This document shows, piece by piece, positions 52,255 to 61,593 of a stretch of DNA of 64,000 nt; the stretch's first letter is position 1, and the number at the start of each line of letters is the position of its first letter. The position numbers were made by a program, and so were the translations under genes. This stretch comes from Lentisphaerales bacterium. Lineage in GTDB: Bacteria > Verrucomicrobiota > Lentisphaeria > Lentisphaerales > Lentisphaeraceae. The notes beneath the pieces were generated by a model. It was not told the origin of the DNA and ran no database searches. It was given only the letters and a program-made list of their open reading frames with translations. The stretch covers positions 62,001-126,000 of the forward strand of contig JAKVBD010000006.1 of the NCBI GenBank assembly GCA_022446985.1, in the 5' to 3' direction.

Positions 52255-52516
52255 ATTCATTTTCTGACGTGCCTTGCGCATGATAAATCTCCCTTACTTG
52301 CGTCTAAGCCAATGTACTAGAAAAAACTAACGAAGTACTGTAGTTTACATGGTTCCACTTCGGGCTACTATCCTTGCCCATAGAGACATTATAGCCGCAT
52401 AAAAATTCAAACTTAATCAAAAAATAACCCCATAAAAATTCAAAATCAACAATCCAAATCTTGTATTAATACAAATTCTATCTTGGATTTTGTTTAATAA
52501 CATACGAGGCGATTTT

Positions 52517-53887
52517 ATGCAGCGTGAAGCAATAGTGTACCTTCAAGAGTGGCGGCAGCGAAGTTCACGGCGGCCCCTGATTATCCGCGGTGCCCGGCAA
52601 GTCGGTAAATCCTGGTTGGCAAAGCAGTTCGGTCGTGAAAATTTTCAGAATTTTATCGAAACAAATTTTGATGAAAAACAACAACTTGACCGGATTTTTG
52701 AAAAAGATATTAACGAATGTCTTAATTTACTTGAAATCGAATTCGATACTGAGATCAAAGATGGCGACACCTTAATTTTTCTTGATGAAGTTCAAGCTGC
52801 TCCTGAGGTATTTGCCCGTTTACGCTACTTTTATGAAAATCGTCCGGGCCTTCATATTATTGCTACAGGTTCTCTTTTAGAGTTTCTTTTAGCCAATCAT
52901 AGTTTTTCTATGCCCGTCGTACGTATTGAGTATATGTATCTCTTACCTTTCAACTTCCGCGAATTTCTTATGGCTGCAAACCAGCAACGCTTACTTAATT
53001 TCATGCTGAAATACCAGCTCGGCGATGAATTACCTGAAAGCATTCATCAAAAAATCCGCCGTTATTTTCTTAAGTTTCTTTATCTCGGGGCCATGCCGGA
53101 AAGTATAAAAAGCTGGATTGAAAGTGGCAATTTCCGCCAAAGTGAAATAATTAGTCAATCCTTAAAATTTACCGCGACGATTTTAGTAAATACTGCGATC
53201 GCTTTGATTTACTGTTACTTCAGTAAGTTTATGATCAGTTACCATTTTGTGTCGCTCAAAAATTCAAATATTCGCAACTATTTCCTGATCAACGTCCCTA
53301 CAAAATCAAGCAAGCTTATGACCTTCTCTGTCAGGCTGGGCTGGCAACAGCCATTACTCACTCTTCCAGTAACGGTGTGCCTCTAGCAGCAGAAAGAAAG
53401 GCAAAAATATTTAAGAACCTTTTCCTGGATTGTGGTTTGATGCTAATTGCGAATGGGCTGAAATTAACCGACCTTGATGATGATCTAATTTTGATCAATA
53501 AGGAAACACTGGCAGAACAAGTTGTCGGTCAGCACCTACTTTATATGGGTGATTTTTTTTGAGCGTCCGCAATTGCATTATTGGGTCAGAGAAAAAAGTG
53601 GCTCGGCGGCAGAAATTGACTACGTTATTGAACTCAAAGGTAGAGTTATTCCTGTTGAAGTAAAAGCTGGCAAAAGTGGTCGTCTTAGATCTCTACAGCA
53701 GTTTGCCAAGGAAAAAAAATGTTCTGTAGTTTTGCGCTTTAATGACGACCTGTCTTTCATACTGACAATCGACCAGAACGACAGTTCCTTTCAACTCATT
53801 TCGCTACCTTATACATGGCTGGAGAAATTCCGCGTTTGTTTGACAACTACCCACTTTAAAGTGATGTCTGAGTCAGTCAACATTTGA
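52517..53887 (+). pseudogene. DUF4143-type AAA ATPase pseudogene
   Basis: The N-terminal half is intact: GARQVGKSWLAKQFG (Walker A), LIFLDEVQAAPEVFARL (Walker B), ATGSLLEFLL and LYLGAMPESI. After about 53169 a frameshift gives another frame with YRDDFSKYCDRFDLLLLQ, which hits a TAA near 53230. VYDQLPFCVAQKFKYSQ follows in the same frame. Then a run of eight T (53553-53560, one too many for the frame) shifts to FERPQLHYWVREKSGSAAEI, the C-terminal nuclease-like DUF4143 block. Three lesions show decay. The first ATG (52517) has GAGG upstream. Confidence 0.85.
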
Positions 53888-54174: not shown

Positions 54175-54202
54175 TGTAACAATTCTTAGGGTGCGGGAAC
54201 TT
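54175..54202 (+). promoter_or_regulatory. Candidate ECF sigma promoter, site 1
   Basis: TGTAAC (54175-54180), then 16 nt, then GAACTT (54197-54202) preceded by GG. It lies 25 bp before the start of the sigma gene itself. The same arrangement occurs at sites 2 and 3. Confidence 0.6.
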
Positions 54203-54227
54203 CCTTAGAATAAGAGAGGAATTTTTG

Positions 54228-54752
54228 ATGACGCCACCAGAAGAATTACACCGGGAATTTTTGCGTTTGTATACCCCAACGCAAAATTCATTGTTTCGCT
54301 ATATTTGCAGCCAGCATCCAAATATAAGTGAAGCTGAAGATATTCTACAGGACGTGGTGACCGTCGCCTGGGAGAAATTTGCAAGTTTTAATTCAGAAGA
54401 CTCTAAATTCACCGCTTGGCTCATCACCATAGCCCGCAATAAAATACTTCATTCGAAACGGCAGTTTCTGCGCAAGCGCAAATTTCTAGATAAGAACCAG
54501 GACAGCTTGGCGGAAGATTATTTTGCTCCATATGACTTTTCCAAATACAAAGAAAAGGAAAAAGCGCTGTCTTCTTGTCTGAATGAATTACCAAGAGATC
54601 ATAAATCGCTGCTGCTACTGCGCTATTACGAAAACTACAGCTGCCTCGATTTAGCCAAGCGCTTCAAGCGAACACACAATCAGGTGCGCACTCAACTTCA
54701 CCGCCTGCGATCAGCACTGAAAACCTGTATAAAACAAAGTCACTTTACATGA
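54228..54752 (+). CDS. ECF RNA polymerase sigma factor
   Basis: The 174-residue sigma-70 family protein has region 2 (LFRYICSQHPNISEAEDILQDVVTVAWE, then FTAWLITIARNKILHSKR) and region 4 (LPRDHKSLLLLRYYENYSCLDLAKRF). It resembles the Rhodopirellula/Verrucomicrobium ECF subfamily. ATG 54228 has GAGAGGA 7 nt upstream; the TTG one codon earlier is not needed. Its stop overlaps the anti-sigma start (ATGA). A candidate self-promoter lies at 54175. Confidence 0.93.
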   Translation: MTPPEELHREFLRLYTPTQNSLFRYICSQHPNISEAEDILQDVVTVAWEKFASFNSEDSKFTAWLITIARNKILHSKRQFLRKRKFLDKNQDSLAEDYFAPYDFSKYKEKEKALSSCLNELPRDHKSLLLLRYYENYSCLDLAKRFKRTHNQVRTQLHRLRSALKTCIKQSHFT

Positions 54753-56089
54753 ATAAAAAAATGGAAATACTTTTAGATAAGTGTCTCTACGATAAGGCCA
54801 GTGAGCAAGAGCGCTTGCAGCTTAAAGAGTATATTGACAGTTCGCCGGAGGCCTACCAGCAGTATTTGGCTCATGTTGATTTTCAATTGGATTTGAAAAC
54901 CTATATAGAACCGGGATTTATGGAGAGCCTGAAGAAGAATAATACTCCGCCAACTAAATTCATAAGCTTTAAAAAAATAGTCCTGAGCTTAGCGGCTCTT
55001 TTAGTTGTCGCCGGAATTCTGTTGTTGCCGCAGAATGAACAAAGTAGTTTTATACTTACTGCAGGACATGAAAACCTCAAAATCATGCGCGCCGGTGAAA
55101 CTGTCGGCGAATTAAATGAGTTACGCCCCGGAGATGAACTACTGGTAGGCGATACGGGACCGGTGAAGTTAAGATTCTCAAATGATAAGAGTCTGGTGGT
55201 CATGGAGCGCAATAGTCGACTCGCAGTTCTGCCGGGCAAAGGAAAAAGTCTAAGTCTGGAAGTCGGCGAAATTTCGGCAGAAGTAACTCCCCAAAAGAAC
55301 CCCTTCACCATAACTACAGACGACGCAAAAATTACCGTGCTGGGAACTGCCTTTAGCTTTTCCTACGATAAGCGGTCGAGTCGCTTAAGGGTTACACAAG
55401 GAAAGGTAAAAATGAGTACTGCCAATGGGCAAAGTAAAACTGTTACTGCAGGGCAATCATTGGATTCGTTGGAATTGCAAGAGTGGCAAAAGGTCAACGC
55501 TGCTGTGGTGGCTGGAGTCTGGCGGACTTCTTATGGCGAAATGACCATTAAGAACAAAGTCGACAATATATTTATTGGTTATTATGGCAAAGGCTCAAAA
55601 TATTCCGGCAGGTTTGAAGCGGAGTTTAAAGATAATGTGTTACAGGGCAAATGGAACAGCGATAGAGGCAATAGTGGTGACATGTCCTTCGCATTCTCAA
55701 AAGATGCTGCCACCTTTGACGGTATGTGGAATTCAACACCAAATGGACGCCCTATCGTCTGGCTGGGTAAGCGTGTCGAACATAAGCAACAAAGCTTTGG
55801 CGGTTATTGGCAGACAACTTACGGTTATACCTGGATTCAAAAAGTGAAAGAAAACCTCTACAAAGGAACGTATAACGGTGGACAGTCTCGTGGCTCTTTG
55901 GAAGGTGTCTTAAAAGATAATATTTTGCAAGGTTCCTGGACACATATTGGCGGCAGAAGCGGCCCCTTTAAATTTACTTTATCTGACGATGAACAAAGCT
56001 TTGACGGTGTCTGGGGCAACGCAATAGAAAAAATGACTCAAAACTGGGACGGGAAGCGGTATAATGAACAAATACCGGCAAAAAAGTAA
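54749..56089 (+). CDS. FecR-like anti-sigma factor with duplicated C-terminal domain
   Basis: The 446-residue protein has a cytoplasmic N-terminal helical zone (MEILLDKCLYDKASEQERLQ), one membrane helix (about residues 71-93) and a FecR domain (about 100-225, with ITTDDAKITVLGTAFSFSYD). Two repeats of about 85 residues then follow: residues 255-352 (GVWRTSYGEMTIK ... WLGKR) and 360-437 (GGYWQTTYGYTWIQ ... WDGKR). It probably binds and inhibits the sigma factor; the repeats would be periplasmic sensors or binding modules. It overlaps the sigma gene at ATGA. Confidence 0.85.
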   Translation: MNKKMEILLDKCLYDKASEQERLQLKEYIDSSPEAYQQYLAHVDFQLDLKTYIEPGFMESLKKNNTPPTKFISFKKIVLSLAALLVVAGILLLPQNEQSSFILTAGHENLKIMRAGETVGELNELRPGDELLVGDTGPVKLRFSNDKSLVVMERNSRLAVLPGKGKSLSLEVGEISAEVTPQKNPFTITTDDAKITVLGTAFSFSYDKRSSRLRVTQGKVKMSTANGQSKTVTAGQSLDSLELQEWQKVNAAVVAGVWRTSYGEMTIKNKVDNIFIGYYGKGSKYSGRFEAEFKDNVLQGKWNSDRGNSGDMSFAFSKDAATFDGMWNSTPNGRPIVWLGKRVEHKQQSFGGYWQTTYGYTWIQKVKENLYKGTYNGGQSRGSLEGVLKDNILQGSWTHIGGRSGPFKFTLSDDEQSFDGVWGNAIEKMTQNWDGKRYNEQIPAKK

Positions 56090-56096
56090 CTCTTCA

Positions 56097-56124
56097 TGTA
56101 ACACTTGGGACTTTGTGGGAACTA
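56097..56124 (+). promoter_or_regulatory. Candidate ECF sigma promoter, site 2
   Basis: TGTAAC (56097-56102), then 16 nt, then GAACTA (56119-56124), preceded by GTGG. It lies 112 bp before the PQQ-propeller start codon, inside the gap after the anti-sigma gene. Confidence 0.6.
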
Positions 56125-56236
56125 CTGGACGTTAGTTACTTTGATAGAAAGACCTCTTTTAGGCAGCAAGCTTTCCTCCATAAGTGCTCTAACAAGAAAT
56201 TTTATTAAAAAAAATAGGAATACTTTCAGAAGCACG

Positions 56237-59200
56237 ATGATACGATTCTTTACATGTTTATTTATATTGTTTCAGTTTGCGGTCTATACACAGGCAGCCC
56301 CTACTGAAAAGATGAGCCTCACCACCAATAAGATAAGTTATTTCCCGGGTGAGCCAATCACAGTTTCTTTTAAAGCTACTTCAGGCACATCGGGCAACTG
56401 GGTAGGCATATACCCCCGAAACAAAGTTCCAAAGAAAGGGAAACCGATTCTATGGTGGTCTTGGGCTAAAGCAGTTGAGGGCTCGAGCATAAATGAAAAG
56501 GGTCTCGATAAGGCCGGAGAATACACTGCGCACTTACTTACTAAAGAATATAAAGTACTCATTTCACAAGACTTTAAGGTGGAGGAGCAGAAGCTCAATA
56601 TTATTGCAGGCACAGCTGACTGGCCGACTTATTTGTCGGATAGCAGTCGTTCAGGAGGAACTTCAACTAAGGTGAATTTCCCCTTGAAGGTCAATTGGTG
56701 TTACACTGCAGCCCACCCACCTGAACCTGCCTGGCCGGCACCCGCTGTCAAAAATGTCTATAAAGGCAAAACTCTAAAGGCGCGAGTCGTTTATGATCGA
56801 GCCTATCATGTAGTTTCTATCGATAAAAAAGTTTATTTTGCCTCGTCTGCAGATGGTTCAGTTACCTGTGTGGATTTAGACAGCGGAAAAATGAAATGGA
56901 AGTTTTTTAGTGAAGGACCGGTTCGTCTGGCTCCGACCTGCACGGGCAAGCAGATCATTTTTGGTTCTGATGATGGCATGATCTACAGCCTCCATAAAGA
57001 TACCGGCAAGCTACTATGGAAGACCCGTCCGGTCGAAGATAAAACACAAGTCGGCGGCAATGGACACTTAATCAGTTTATTCCCTATTCGCTCGAGCATT
57101 CTCATTGCAAAAGATTTTGAAACAGATGAGCTTAAAGGCTTTTTCTGTGCCGGAATATTCCCCATACAAGGTGTTTTTTATGGGAAACTTGATCTCGAAT
57201 CCGGCAAGGTCGAAAGTATTCAAGCTCTTAAACGCTCTGCTCAAGGCTACCTGCAGGAGAACGCTGGCCGCATTTATACTCCTACCGGCAGAGTTCCGAA
57301 AGGAGAATGGCTCGACACCCTGGTGCGACGCGGCGGAGTTGCCACGACAGTACGCACTTCAATTAATGATGACTACCCCTATTCTTCTATCAATAATCTT
57401 GAATATTCTTTTCGAGGCGGCAGAAATACAGTCACTGCCTTTGAACTCAAGACGGCAAAAAAAGTATGGGAAGCAAAAGTCGATGGCGACGCCTACTCAT
57501 TGGCAATTGTCAGAGGTCAACTTTTAGTCAGTACCGATAAAGGTAAAATCTATTGCTTTAGCAGTGGGAGTGTCTCTCCCAGATTCACTGCGGTGAAACG
57601 ACAAGTAAGTAAACCCATCAGCCAATCGGCAATACGCTCTGCACAGAAGTTACTTGCTAAACACGGTACAAAAAAAGGCTACTGCCTTATACTCGGCGCC
57701 AAGCGCGGCCTTAAGCTTGCCAAAGCTTTGGCGTCCACCAGTCAGTTTACTGTTATCATTCGGGAAGCCGATCAAAAATTAGCCCAGGCAGCGATTCAGG
57801 AAGTGTTCAACTCAGGCCTGGAGCGACGCATTAAAATTCAGCACGGTTCAACCATGCAATTGCCCTACAGTGATTACTTCTTCAATATGGTCTTTGACCT
57901 GAGAGTGCCACCACATACTAATGACAGCGAAGCCAAGCGCGTCCTGCGTCCTGAAGGCGGAACTTATATAACCCTCAACGGTAATACTTTTAAACGCCCT
58001 GCTCTAAAAGGGACTGGAGATTGGACACACTTTTATGGGAATTCCGCCAATAGCGCCTGTAGTGAGGATGAAACGAACGGCACTAAGCTTGTCATGCAAT
58101 GGTTTGGAAAACCCGGCCCGCGCAACATGATTGACCGGCATAATCGAACTTGTGCACCGCTATACAAACAAGGTCGCATGTTTGTTACCGGCAATAACTG
58201 GTTCTGTGGAGTGGATGCTTATAATGGCACCATCCTCTGGGAACGGGACATTCCTGATTCACGCCGCTTCAGTGCCTTAAAAGGTAGCAGTAATATGGCC
58301 GCTTTTGAAAATAAATTGCTGACAGCCAGCGCTAAGACCTGCTTACTGCTCGATGGTCAAACAGGAAAAACCGAACATGTCTTCAAAGTTCCCGGGCAAA
58401 AGGGCGATTGGTGTTATACAGCAGTTCATAAAGGACTGTTATTTGGCAGTGAAACAAAAGTGGGCGCCAATAGCTGGGATTATGATAAGTACTCCTACTC
58501 CATTTCCTGGCAGCCGAGGCAATCATTTATCTGCTCAAAAAAACTCTTCAATTATGATTTAAAGACTAAGAAACTACGCGGATTGTATAACGCCGGCCAG
58601 GGCGTCATCATCACTCCCAGTATAGCTATTATTGATGATTCAGTCTTTTTTGTTGAAAACCGGACAGCCCGAATTGGTGCTATCTACGAAAACTCCAAAA
58701 AAGAGTACGGCGATGCCTATGAGCATGGCAAGAATTATAAATATCGGGCCTGGGCCGATGGACATGTAAAACTCGTAGATATGACCGGCGATGACCTATA
58801 CCTGGTAGCCTTAAATGCTAGTAACCTAAAGGTCAAATGGCGGGTCTCACTGAAGGAGTTGAAACTACAGCATACACTTTATACGACTGCTAAGAATAAG
58901 CGACTTCTGGTATACGGTTCGCGTACTGAAGGGAAATACCATTACTTTGATGTAGAGGCTTATGATACCGATACCGGTAAAAAAGTATGGACCCAAAGTT
59001 TTAAACCGCGGGATCAAGACAAAAATGGCACCCATGGCGAAATCACTCTACACGGTGCGGCTTCTGGAGATTACTTTTATCTCGCAGAAAAAGCCTATAA
59101 CATAAAAACAGGTGTGCAAAAAGAATCCTGGGTTTGGAACCGCGGAGGATCAAAGTGCGGCACCATTTCCACCTCAAAAAATATGATGTTCTGGCGTGGT

Positions 59201-59386
59201 TGGCACCCCCGCTTCGCGATCATCAAGGATAAATTTTCGGCCACTAACTTTACTACCTCAAATCGCCCCAGCTGTTGGCTGAATACCATCCCGGCCGGTG
59301 GTTTAGTCATGATGCCAGAAGGCAGCTCAGGATGCTCCTGTAATTTGGAGATTCAATCAAGCTTAGTCTTCCGTCCCGTACCCTGA
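56237..59386 (+). CDS. Secreted PQQ-propeller protein with methyltransferase-like insert
   Basis: The 1049-residue protein has a signal peptide (residues 1-21), an Ig-like region (about 22-115) and a PQQ-type beta-propeller (120-455; YFASSADGSVTCVDLDSGKMKWKF, GSDDGMIYSLHKDTGKLLWKT). A Rossmann, SAM-methyltransferase-like domain follows (about 470-585; LILGAKRG, QLPYSDYFFNMVFDL, EAKRVLRPEGGTYI), then a second propeller (590-1049). LILGAKRG lacks the acidic/glycine residues of motif I, so methyltransferase activity is doubtful. ATG 56237 gives a clean signal peptide. The longer frame from 56105 would overlap the candidate promoter. Confidence 0.85.
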   Translation: MIRFFTCLFILFQFAVYTQAAPTEKMSLTTNKISYFPGEPITVSFKATSGTSGNWVGIYPRNKVPKKGKPILWWSWAKAVEGSSINEKGLDKAGEYTAHLLTKEYKVLISQDFKVEEQKLNIIAGTADWPTYLSDSSRSGGTSTKVNFPLKVNWCYTAAHPPEPAWPAPAVKNVYKGKTLKARVVYDRAYHVVSIDKKVYFASSADGSVTCVDLDSGKMKWKFFSEGPVRLAPTCTGKQIIFGSDDGMIYSLHKDTGKLLWKTRPVEDKTQVGGNGHLISLFPIRSSILIAKDFETDELKGFFCAGIFPIQGVFYGKLDLESGKVESIQALKRSAQGYLQENAGRIYTPTGRVPKGEWLDTLVRRGGVATTVRTSINDDYPYSSINNLEYSFRGGRNTVTAFELKTAKKVWEAKVDGDAYSLAIVRGQLLVSTDKGKIYCFSSGSVSPRFTAVKRQVSKPISQSAIRSAQKLLAKHGTKKGYCLILGAKRGLKLAKALASTSQFTVIIREADQKLAQAAIQEVFNSGLERRIKIQHGSTMQLPYSDYFFNMVFDLRVPPHTNDSEAKRVLRPEGGTYITLNGNTFKRPALKGTGDWTHFYGNSANSACSEDETNGTKLVMQWFGKPGPRNMIDRHNRTCAPLYKQGRMFVTGNNWFCGVDAYNGTILWERDIPDSRRFSALKGSSNMAAFENKLLTASAKTCLLLDGQTGKTEHVFKVPGQKGDWCYTAVHKGLLFGSETKVGANSWDYDKYSYSISWQPRQSFICSKKLFNYDLKTKKLRGLYNAGQGVIITPSIAIIDDSVFFVENRTARIGAIYENSKKEYGDAYEHGKNYKYRAWADGHVKLVDMTGDDLYLVALNASNLKVKWRVSLKELKLQHTLYTTAKNKRLLVYGSRTEGKYHYFDVEAYDTDTGKKVWTQSFKPRDQDKNGTHGEITLHGAASGDYFYLAEKAYNIKTGVQKESWVWNRGGSKCGTISTSKNMMFWRGWHPRFAIIKDKFSATNFTTSNRPSCWLNTIPAGGLVMMPEGSSGCSCNLEIQSSLVFRPVP

Positions 59387-59404
59387 ATTTAAGGAAATAA
59401 GCTT

Positions 59405-60361
59405 ATGAGAAAAATACTTTTTATACTGCCTCTGATTTTTGGCGGATTCACTGCCGCGACTTGTGAAACCCCTGTATTTCGTTATGCCTTAGAGCGCTGG
59501 ACGGCGGACAATTATACTCTGGAACTGCCCGCGTCTTTATCACTTAATGAATTAAATGAAAAGAGCAATATTGAGATAAAAGCAGGGTCTGCAGAAGAGG
59601 TGAAGATCTACTATCCGCATAGCAAGTCTCCTTTCTTTACTGAGGCTGTCGAAAACTTCTCATATAGCGAACTGATCAACTCCCCTGCCCGTGACGAAAT
59701 TGTTAAAAGAATAATAGCTGGCGATTCTGTAGTCTGGGTGGTATTGACCACAGGCGATGAACTGCCCGAAGAAAAGATTCTCGAGGAGTCTCTTCGTGCG
59801 GCCGAAAAGTCTCTTGCTTCAGAAAAAGTTGAACTGAAATTCTCGTATTTACAGATCCCGCGACACTCAAAAAAAGAACGTTATTTCATTGCAAGTCTAC
59901 TGGCGATAGAAGCTGACTTAACGGACATAAAAGAAACTATTGTCTTCCCGGTATTTGGCCGCGGGCGCTTTTTGGCACCTCTAGTGGGTAAAGGTATTAA
60001 TTCCGAAAACATTAAGGATCAGGGGACTTATTTAACCGGCGCTTGTTCATGTGAAATTAAAAGTCAAAACCCGGGTTTGGATCTGCTCATTAAATTTGAC
60101 TGGGAAAAGGCTCTTAAAAACCAATCAACTGTAGAAGACAAAATGCTGCCACCATTAATTGGAACCGGTGCCTTCTTACAAGGTCCGTATGTGGAGAAAG
60201 ATAATTCCCACCGAGAAAAGATAATCGAGGAACCAAGTGAAGTCTGCGCTGAGCAAAAGAGCTCTCAACGGAATACTTCTTTACAGAGCTTAGGAATCAT
60301 CCTATCGTTCGGTCTGTTATTCATAGTCATACTAAAAAAATTAAAGCCACATTTACAATAA
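59405..60361 (+). CDS. Secreted CSC-motif protein with C-terminal membrane helix
   Basis: The 318-residue protein has a signal peptide (residues 1-20), the block PVFRYALERWTADNY, then IVFPVFGRGRFLAPLVGKGI and LTGACSCEIKSQNPGLDLLIKFDW, and a C-terminal hydrophobic helix (LGIILSFGLLFIVILKKL). The CSC pair and the conserved VFGRGR and NPG.DLL blocks look like those of a Planctomycete-type envelope family I cannot name with certainty. It is 18 bp after the propeller gene and so is probably co-transcribed with it. The function is unknown. Confidence 0.65.
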   Translation: MRKILFILPLIFGGFTAATCETPVFRYALERWTADNYTLELPASLSLNELNEKSNIEIKAGSAEEVKIYYPHSKSPFFTEAVENFSYSELINSPARDEIVKRIIAGDSVVWVVLTTGDELPEEKILEESLRAAEKSLASEKVELKFSYLQIPRHSKKERYFIASLLAIEADLTDIKETIVFPVFGRGRFLAPLVGKGINSENIKDQGTYLTGACSCEIKSQNPGLDLLIKFDWEKALKNQSTVEDKMLPPLIGTGAFLQGPYVEKDNSHREKIIEEPSEVCAEQKSSQRNTSLQSLGIILSFGLLFIVILKKLKPHLQ

Positions 60362-60399
60362 TGGGCGAAACGGTTAACTCGATCAAAAATTTTGTTCTA

Positions 60400-60428
60400 T
60401 GAAATGAGATATTTACTTGGGGGAACTA
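60400..60428 (+). promoter_or_regulatory. Weak ECF-like half site
   Basis: TGAAAT (60400-60405), then 17 nt, then GAACTA (60423-60428) with GGGGG before it. Only the GAACTA half matches the other sites well. What it would transcribe is unclear. Confidence 0.3.
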
Positions 60429-60604
60429 CAGCATTTTCTGTGTGACTTTGTCATGTTAAGCACAGTGAACTATAATTCTTCCCGCTATAGCAGAATCTTT
60501 TTAAAGTTATAGATTAACTCTTCTAGAACTTAGATTATCCAAAGGCTGTTTTAGATCGCACGCGGACAAGATGAATTGCGCAGCAAGAACAGGTACCTGA
60601 GGTA

Positions 60605-60729
60605 GGCGCGAAGACGCGGGAATTCACAATAAAGAATGGTAATCATCTCTTTATTCATGTAGTCTCAAATATATTTAAGTAAATAGCTTACATAAGAATA
60701 ATCTCTGCGCTTTCGCGCCTCTGCGTGAG
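60605..60729. repeat. Imperfect inverted repeat with GCGC blocks
   Basis: GGCGCGAAGACGCGGGAATTC (60605-60625) and, about 80 bp later, CTCTGCGCTTTCGCGCCTCT (60703-60722) are imperfectly inverted. CTCTGCG...TCTGCGTGAGA is a type of dispersed element seen in many bacterial genomes. It fills the gap 60362-60945 between the CSC gene and the prepilin. Confidence 0.45.
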
Positions 60730-60873
60730 AATTTCAAATAATTAATTTTCCTTTCAAGTAGAGATCTCACATAGTTGCAATATCTGGTAATTGTCATTTA
60801 CAGATTGAAGAAGAATCTGCATAAGATGATTACACAGATATTCCTGAAGAAATCTGTTTTTTTAGAAAAATCC

Positions 60874-60901
60874 CGTAACAGTTTACTCATCGCGGGAACT
60901 A
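60874..60901 (+). promoter_or_regulatory. Candidate ECF sigma promoter, site 3
   Basis: CGTAAC (60874-60879), then 16 nt, then GAACTA (60896-60901), preceded by CGCGG. It lies 44 bp before the prepilin start and has the same spacing as sites 1 and 2. Confidence 0.6.
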
Positions 60902-60945
60902 CAAAGTGAGCATTGGAACTAAAATGAAACTTGTAGAGAATGATG

Positions 60946-61593
60946 ATGAAACGAAAATTTACACTTCTTGAATTATTAGTTGTTATTGCCATAATGGGCA
61001 TTTTAATGACCATATTGTTGCCAAAATTACGGCAAGCCAGAGAAACTGCCCGCATCGCTGTCTGTGGCAGCAATATGAAACAGATGAATGTCGCCTTGAG
61101 TCTATACGTCAAAGATAACAAAGGACGCGTCCCGCCCAGGTGGAGCAGCGTATGTTCATGGGTGGGCAATCCGGGTACTCATAATTACTATAAGAAATAT
61201 ACCGTATCCAAAAAATATCTCAACAAGTATCTTGGCTATCACAATGATACAGAAAATGTCGCAATGGCCACGTGCCCTTCGGCAAATTTCGGCGGTGTGT
61301 GGTCCAAAACTTACGGAACTGACTATTATGCTAACAATGGCTTTTCAGCTAATAATTTAACCTCTACCGCTTTTATGGCGAAAGTTAAAGATCCCACTAG
61401 AATGATTTCCTTGTATGAAGGAGGAGCTTGGTACCAGTTCCTGTCCAAGACACCTTGGTCAAACCTTGAGCATCACGATCAAAAATTAGGACGTTATAAT
61501 ATTGCCTTTACGGACGGCCATGTCAGCTTTATGCACAGTATCTTAAGAGGCTCAAAACACGGAGAAAGCTATACTTTCAACAATGAGTTGTAA
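60946..61593 (+). CDS. Prepilin-like protein with TDGHVSF C-terminus
   Basis: The 215-residue protein opens [20 protein letters not shown], a type IV prepilin leader and N-terminal helix as in general secretion pseudopilins. A beta-rich, secreted region follows and ends with [14 protein letters not shown], the H-x9-DG-like C-terminal motif common in Lentisphaerae/Planctomycetes. It probably assembles in a pseudopilus or is displayed on the surface. Of three ATGs in a row (60940, 60943, 60946), the third is best spaced from the AGAG upstream. A candidate ECF promoter is at 60874. Confidence 0.85.

Follow-up and report, generated by a model that had tools for sequence, protein, structure and literature searches.

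A GTAACA/GGGAA element as the probable promoter of a putatively self-regulating ECF sigma factor with a FecR-type partner in a Lentisphaerales bacterium

The window analysed here is a 64 000-nucleotide stretch of the 6.34-Mb draft genome of a marine Lentisphaerales bacterium (G000), and it carries a cluster of five genes on the + strand. The first gene (54228..54752) encodes a sigma factor of 174 aa, designated sigmaA, with the SD sequence GAGAGG 5′ of its ATG. SigmaA contains the Pfam domains Sigma70_r2 and Sigma70_r4_2 only, which is the sigma2-plus-sigma4 composition that marks an ECF sigma factor. Its match to the Rhodopirellula/Verrucomicrobium-type profile TIGR02989 is borderline, reaching 124.6 bits in a protein search, just above the cut-off of 124.55, and 124.3 bits, just below it, in a genome search. 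Many paralogues of this type are found in these genomes, and the six-member clade containing sigmaA is a diverged one. The complement of G000 is very large, with 109 TIGR02989-profile matches (many of them weak), 23 FecR-like and 94 PSCyt1 matches. Just upstream of sigmaA, positions 52490-53887 hold fragments of an AAA_14 ATPase and of DUF4143 in different frames, the remains of a broken AAA/DUF4143 gene.

The second gene (54749..56089, + strand) encodes a FecR-type anti-sigma protein of 446 aa (PF04773), and its start overlaps the sigma stop codon in the sequence ATGA. The protein consists of an N-terminal anti-sigma-like segment, where residues 18-92 weakly match the anti-sigma family LIMLP_03685, a single hydrophobic stretch at about residues 75-93, the FecR domain at residues 133-221 and two related C-terminal repeats of about 95 aa each. 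The FecR domain is C-terminal to the hydrophobic stretch, and a membrane/periplasmic topology is predicted. The repeats belong to no known family and gave no significant match among the sequences of solved structures; an AlphaFold2 model made without an alignment was uninformative (pLDDT 34). The FecR-domain gene directly adjoins sigmaA, as expected of a cognate anti-sigma gene, and the pair is conserved in three genomes (G003, G004 and G005) of one other genus of the family, Lentisphaera. Each of these encodes a sigma factor with 40-44% identity to sigmaA, followed by a FecR gene. The same arrangement, an ECF sigma gene next to a gene for a FecR-domain membrane anti-sigma, is found in FecI-FecR of Escherichia coli and in the LIC_12757-LIC_12756 pair of Leptospira. 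Unlike FecI/FecR/FecA, the window system has no TonB-dependent or other outer-membrane transporter gene among its five cluster genes, as judged with Pfam.

The third gene (56237..59386, + strand) encodes an exported PQQ-type beta-propeller of 1049 aa (PQQ_2) with a methyltransferase-like insertion, seen as a weak MenG/UbiE match at residues 510-582. It is followed by a gene (59405..60361, + strand) for an exported protein of 318 aa with a CSC motif, which matches no Pfam or NCBIfam family. These two genes were treated as one unit because they also adjoin in other genomes, and the CSC-motif gene is likely co-transcribed with the propeller gene. The fifth gene (60940..61593, + strand) encodes a prepilin-like protein with an N-terminal methylation motif and a DUF1559-like start (N_methyl, SBP_bac_10 and TIGR02532 matches). 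In G003 (L291, G003:C1:1088304) a divergent prepilin gene adjoins CSC and propeller genes, the same three that neighbour each other in the window.

Three intergenic sites on the + strand share an exact motif, YGTAAC-N14-GGGAACTW, which can also be written YGTAAC-N16-GAACTW. They are located ahead of the sigma/FecR unit (54175..54202, TGTAAC-N14-GGGAACTT), ahead of the propeller/CSC unit (56097..56124, TGTAAC-N14-GGGAACTA) and ahead of the prepilin gene (60874..60901, CGTAAC-N14-GGGAACTA). The first-pass annotation had described these sites as YGTAAC, exactly 16 nt and GAACTW with GG before it, and this reading was confirmed. No other position in the window matches without mismatch. The spacer from GTAAC to GGGAACT is 14 nt at all three sites, and its letters are otherwise unrelated. 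From the third site to the ATG there are 40 nt, and from the second site to the likely propeller ATG about 113 nt, an unusually long leader that exceeds those of all other sites. A fourth, partial site near 60400 had also been proposed. The sequence in question, GGGAACTAC (60421..60429, + strand), is a right half only, with TGAAAT one base too far out in place of a correctly spaced GTAAC, and the next gene start is about 500 nt away. This candidate was dropped, and it is probably not a promoter. Ahead of the third site, in the gap that follows the CSC gene, positions 60430-60870 comprise about 440 nt of non-coding DNA in which a ctctgcgctttcgcgcctctgcgtgag-like sequence resembles common intergenic repeats. 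An Rfam search of the window from 52 to 64 kb returned no match.

A chance resemblance of three intergenic sequences would agree with the behaviour of looser versions of the motif. With three mismatches allowed, the window contains 15 matches against 12.3 expected, a chance frequency; counts for motifs relaxed to KTAAC and GGGAAMK fall back to background. The shorter GTAAC-N16-GAACT is matched exactly 17 times in the whole of G000, counting both strands. Against a chance origin stands the uniqueness of the full form, since GTAAC-N{12,16}-GGGAACT occurs only three times in the 6.34-Mb genome, each time at one of the cluster sites. In 60 relatives the same pattern was not above a reversed-pattern control, and the GGGAACT form is therefore essentially private to the window cluster. 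The two boxes also recur independently, in five genomes, with the same spacing and position, as detailed below, so that chance is effectively refuted. The first-pass annotation had likewise judged chance an unlikely source of the identical spacing, which is strongly enriched genome-wide.

The spacing was examined by scanning five whole genomes for GTAACA-Nk-GGGAAM with k from 8 to 18, after removal of recurrent 16S copies. The scan returned 18 sites at k=13 and six at k=14; the remaining nine spacings together gave 26 (about 2.9 per spacing). The excess at k=13 has a Poisson probability of 2e-9, which becomes 4e-7 when the window sites are left out. At k=13/14, 14 of 23 sites were classed as intergenic, each followed by an open frame that begins 21-35 nt further on, and the window prepilin site, at 40 nt, comes in addition. 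That site and the window propeller site had been classed as coding only through spurious overlapping or extended frames. All 14 inspected sites at other spacings lie inside coding frames, none of them being intergenic at promoter distance. In an alignment of 16 sites GTAACA is invariant and GGGAA near-invariant, and the stretch from GGGAA to the start codon contains SD-like sequences. In G003 (L214, G003:C1:52261) and G005 (L209, G005:C18:28109), GTAACA-N13-GGGAA is located about 265 nt ahead of PSCyt1/cytochrome c genes that are orthologous to each other, a longer leader than elsewhere.

This geometry bears on which box is which. In E. coli the sigmaE -35 element is GGAACTT. The close likeness of GGGAACTT to it would allow the right-hand box to be a -35, with GTAAC as an upstream or activator element and a -10 about 16 nt downstream. 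However, GGGAAM ends only 21-35 nt ahead of most start codons, with the SD between them, and a -10 placed 16 nt further on would put the transcription start at or after the start codon. Also, the 16-site alignment contains no conserved block downstream of GGGAA, and in another sigma clade (L138-L140) two similarly separated blocks are conserved, with TATA in the downstream one. This arrangement is accordingly very improbable. The -10 can thus only be GGGAA, since one placed 16 nt further down would leave no leader, and GTAACA is read as the -35.

The sigma factors that carry the element ahead of their own gene were identified among 94 distinct sigma genes with upstream DNA, mainly from loci of G000, G001 (a same-genus MAG named 'Lentisphaeraceae bacterium') and G003-G005. 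Six of the 94 have GTAAC-N14/15-GGGAA upstream: sigmaA, one sigma in each of G003, G004 and G005, and a close pair termed sigmaB, which consists of G000:C2:89793, a paralogue of sigmaA in its own genome, and its ortholog G001:C145:51422. In a maximum-likelihood tree of 69 rows these six, and no others, form one clade (support 100/98), in which sigmaA is the deepest branch, on a long stem, with 40-44% identity to the other members. GTAACA-N13/14-GGGAA precedes all five other clade members and none of 88 genes outside the clade (Fisher p 2e-8, a value to be read with the 15-nt spacing having been accepted after inspection of the sequences, the spacing being exactly 14 in three of the five). G003, G004 and G005 all have GGTAACA-N13-GGGAAATAG ahead of the sigma start. 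Sigma relatives that are more distant (identity of about 26-32%, most of them in Planctomycetes-group MAGs) have a few scattered matches nearby, none of which resembles a self-promoter. The proposal of a self-regulated ECF regulon with the motif as its promoter is upheld by this distribution, by the genome-wide enrichment of the spacing and by the intergenic sites at promoter distance. In the L138, L139 and L140 clade the conserved upstream pair is a different one, GGGCAATTTC followed by GGAGTATA, with similar separation, and sigmas L158-L160 have in common an upstream GGCATATTT-like / ACGATA pair. It seems that every sigma clade has a self-promoter of its own. The element could instead serve as the operator of some other DNA-binding regulator, with its gene elsewhere, since such regulators can likewise have two-part sites. 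Its boxes, however, are asymmetric, always oriented to the gene and at a fixed distance from starts, and of the 94 sigma genes they accompany exactly the members of one clade, which leaves an operator without a sigma promoter a highly improbable reading.

Apart from sigma genes, the element is shared by surface-enzyme operons of the PSCyt1/PSCyt2/PSD1-DUF1501 type, its predicted targets. In G003-G005 the motif copies are paired and divergent, one ahead of the sigma gene and the other, YGTAACA-N13-GGGAAA on the other strand, ahead of a gene for a PSCyt1/PSCyt2/PSD1 protein that is followed by a DUF1501 gene. G003 has a second motif-bearing operon of this kind at C1:2098991. In the orthologous PSCyt promoter pairs G000:C36/G001:C7 and G000:C13/G001:C25 the boxes are kept and the spacer has diverged; the latter pair also shows a one-base difference in spacing. 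The prepilin gene and the propeller-CSC unit are predicted targets in the window genome only. Relatives of the propeller and CSC genes in other genomes do not have the element beside them; the propeller-CSC targets thus appear private to sigmaA in G000, and conservation therefore gives these two targets no individual support. The enrichment at envelope or prepilin genes that the first-pass annotation had anticipated must be corrected: the prepilin and propeller sites occur in the window genome only, and the shared targets elsewhere are the PSCyt1/PSCyt2/PSD1-DUF1501 operons.

The three window sites could also serve the paralogue sigmaB as promoters, either in place of sigmaA or alongside it, since both boxes are common to sigmaB promoters and GGGAAA-type sites are present at C36 and C13 of the same genome. 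In G000, however, GGGAAAG is found at the PSCyt sites and at the site ahead of sigmaB itself, whereas all three window sites read GGGAACT, and G001, which does have sigmaB, lacks both the window propeller-CSC unit and a comparable GGGAACT cluster. Use of the window sites by sigmaB is thus considered unlikely, though less so than the operator or shifted-box arrangements.

The preferred reading, to which a probability of roughly 0.83 is assigned, is that the motif is a promoter recognised by sigmaA, which would, with its FecR-type partner, form a self-regulating unit and also drive the prepilin gene and the propeller-CSC unit. The signature is very likely the real on-signal of this switch. Points that weigh against this reading are the long leader at the propeller site, the long branch of sigmaA, the departure of GGGAA from the classical CGT -10 and the absence of the element beside propeller and CSC relatives in other genomes. 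SigmaA would bind a -35 GTAACA and a -10 GGGAAC(T), GTAAC and GGGAA being 14 nt apart. Its gene is predicted to be translationally coupled to that of the membrane FecR-type anti-sigma with periplasmic C-terminal repeats, and the FecR-domain protein would hold sigmaA until it perceives a putative periplasmic signal. The freed sigmaA would then transcribe its own operon, as positive feedback, along with these two targets. Sister sigmas would use the near-identical GTAACA-N13/14-GGGAAA for their own genes and the PSCyt1/PSCyt2/PSD1-DUF1501 operons. The C-terminal part of the FecR protein varies among orthologs, from the two ~95-aa repeats in the window to laminin-G-type domains in G003 and G004, which suggests that the sensor domain has been swapped. 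Tentatively, and at somewhat below even odds, the Lentisphaeraceae ECF clade may have moved to a GGGAA -10 and duplicated into two regulons, sigmaB using GGGAAA for PSCyt/PSD1-DUF1501 and sigmaA using GGGAACT, with a repeat sensor replacing laminin-G, for propeller-CSC and prepilin.

Classical ECF promoters have an AAC -35 and a CGT -10 (PMC8103513). The window element resembles them in its two boxes, in the AAC contained in its GTAACA -35 and in its position ahead of the own gene of all six clade members. It is not filed as a promoter of the classical type because its predicted -10 is GGGAA and not CGT. FecI-like systems are listed as exceptions to autoregulation (PMC8103513). The Leptospira LIC_12757-LIC_12756 pair is reported to be autoregulated, from a promoter with a CGT -10 (PMC12155086); the window system would share the autoregulation, predicted here from the motif ahead of its own gene, but differs in its GGGAA -10. 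It also differs from known FecR pairs in the C-terminal part of the FecR protein, which is a repeat in the window and a laminin-G domain in two of the three Lentisphaera-genus genomes. The literature searched contained no description of the six-member clade's promoter, and a GGGAA -10 may already be reported for some ECF group. ECF/FecR pairs are known, and the window system is claimed as a further member, not as a new class.

These genomes encode dozens of ECF/FecR pairs, and the PSCyt1 cytochrome domain has roughly 50-95 matches in each of them. The link of one sigma clade to a concrete promoter and to target operons gives the PSCyt-DUF1501 systems, which are poorly understood, a regulon that can be tested. 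It also offers a case in which ECF promoter recognition has apparently shifted off the CGT -10. The features of note are this predicted non-CGT -10, the putative autoregulation with a FecR-type partner, the apparently swapped sensor domain and the concreteness of the regulon. If the division into two regulons is true, the family would provide a readable example of regulon splitting via a one-base promoter change and a sensor swap.
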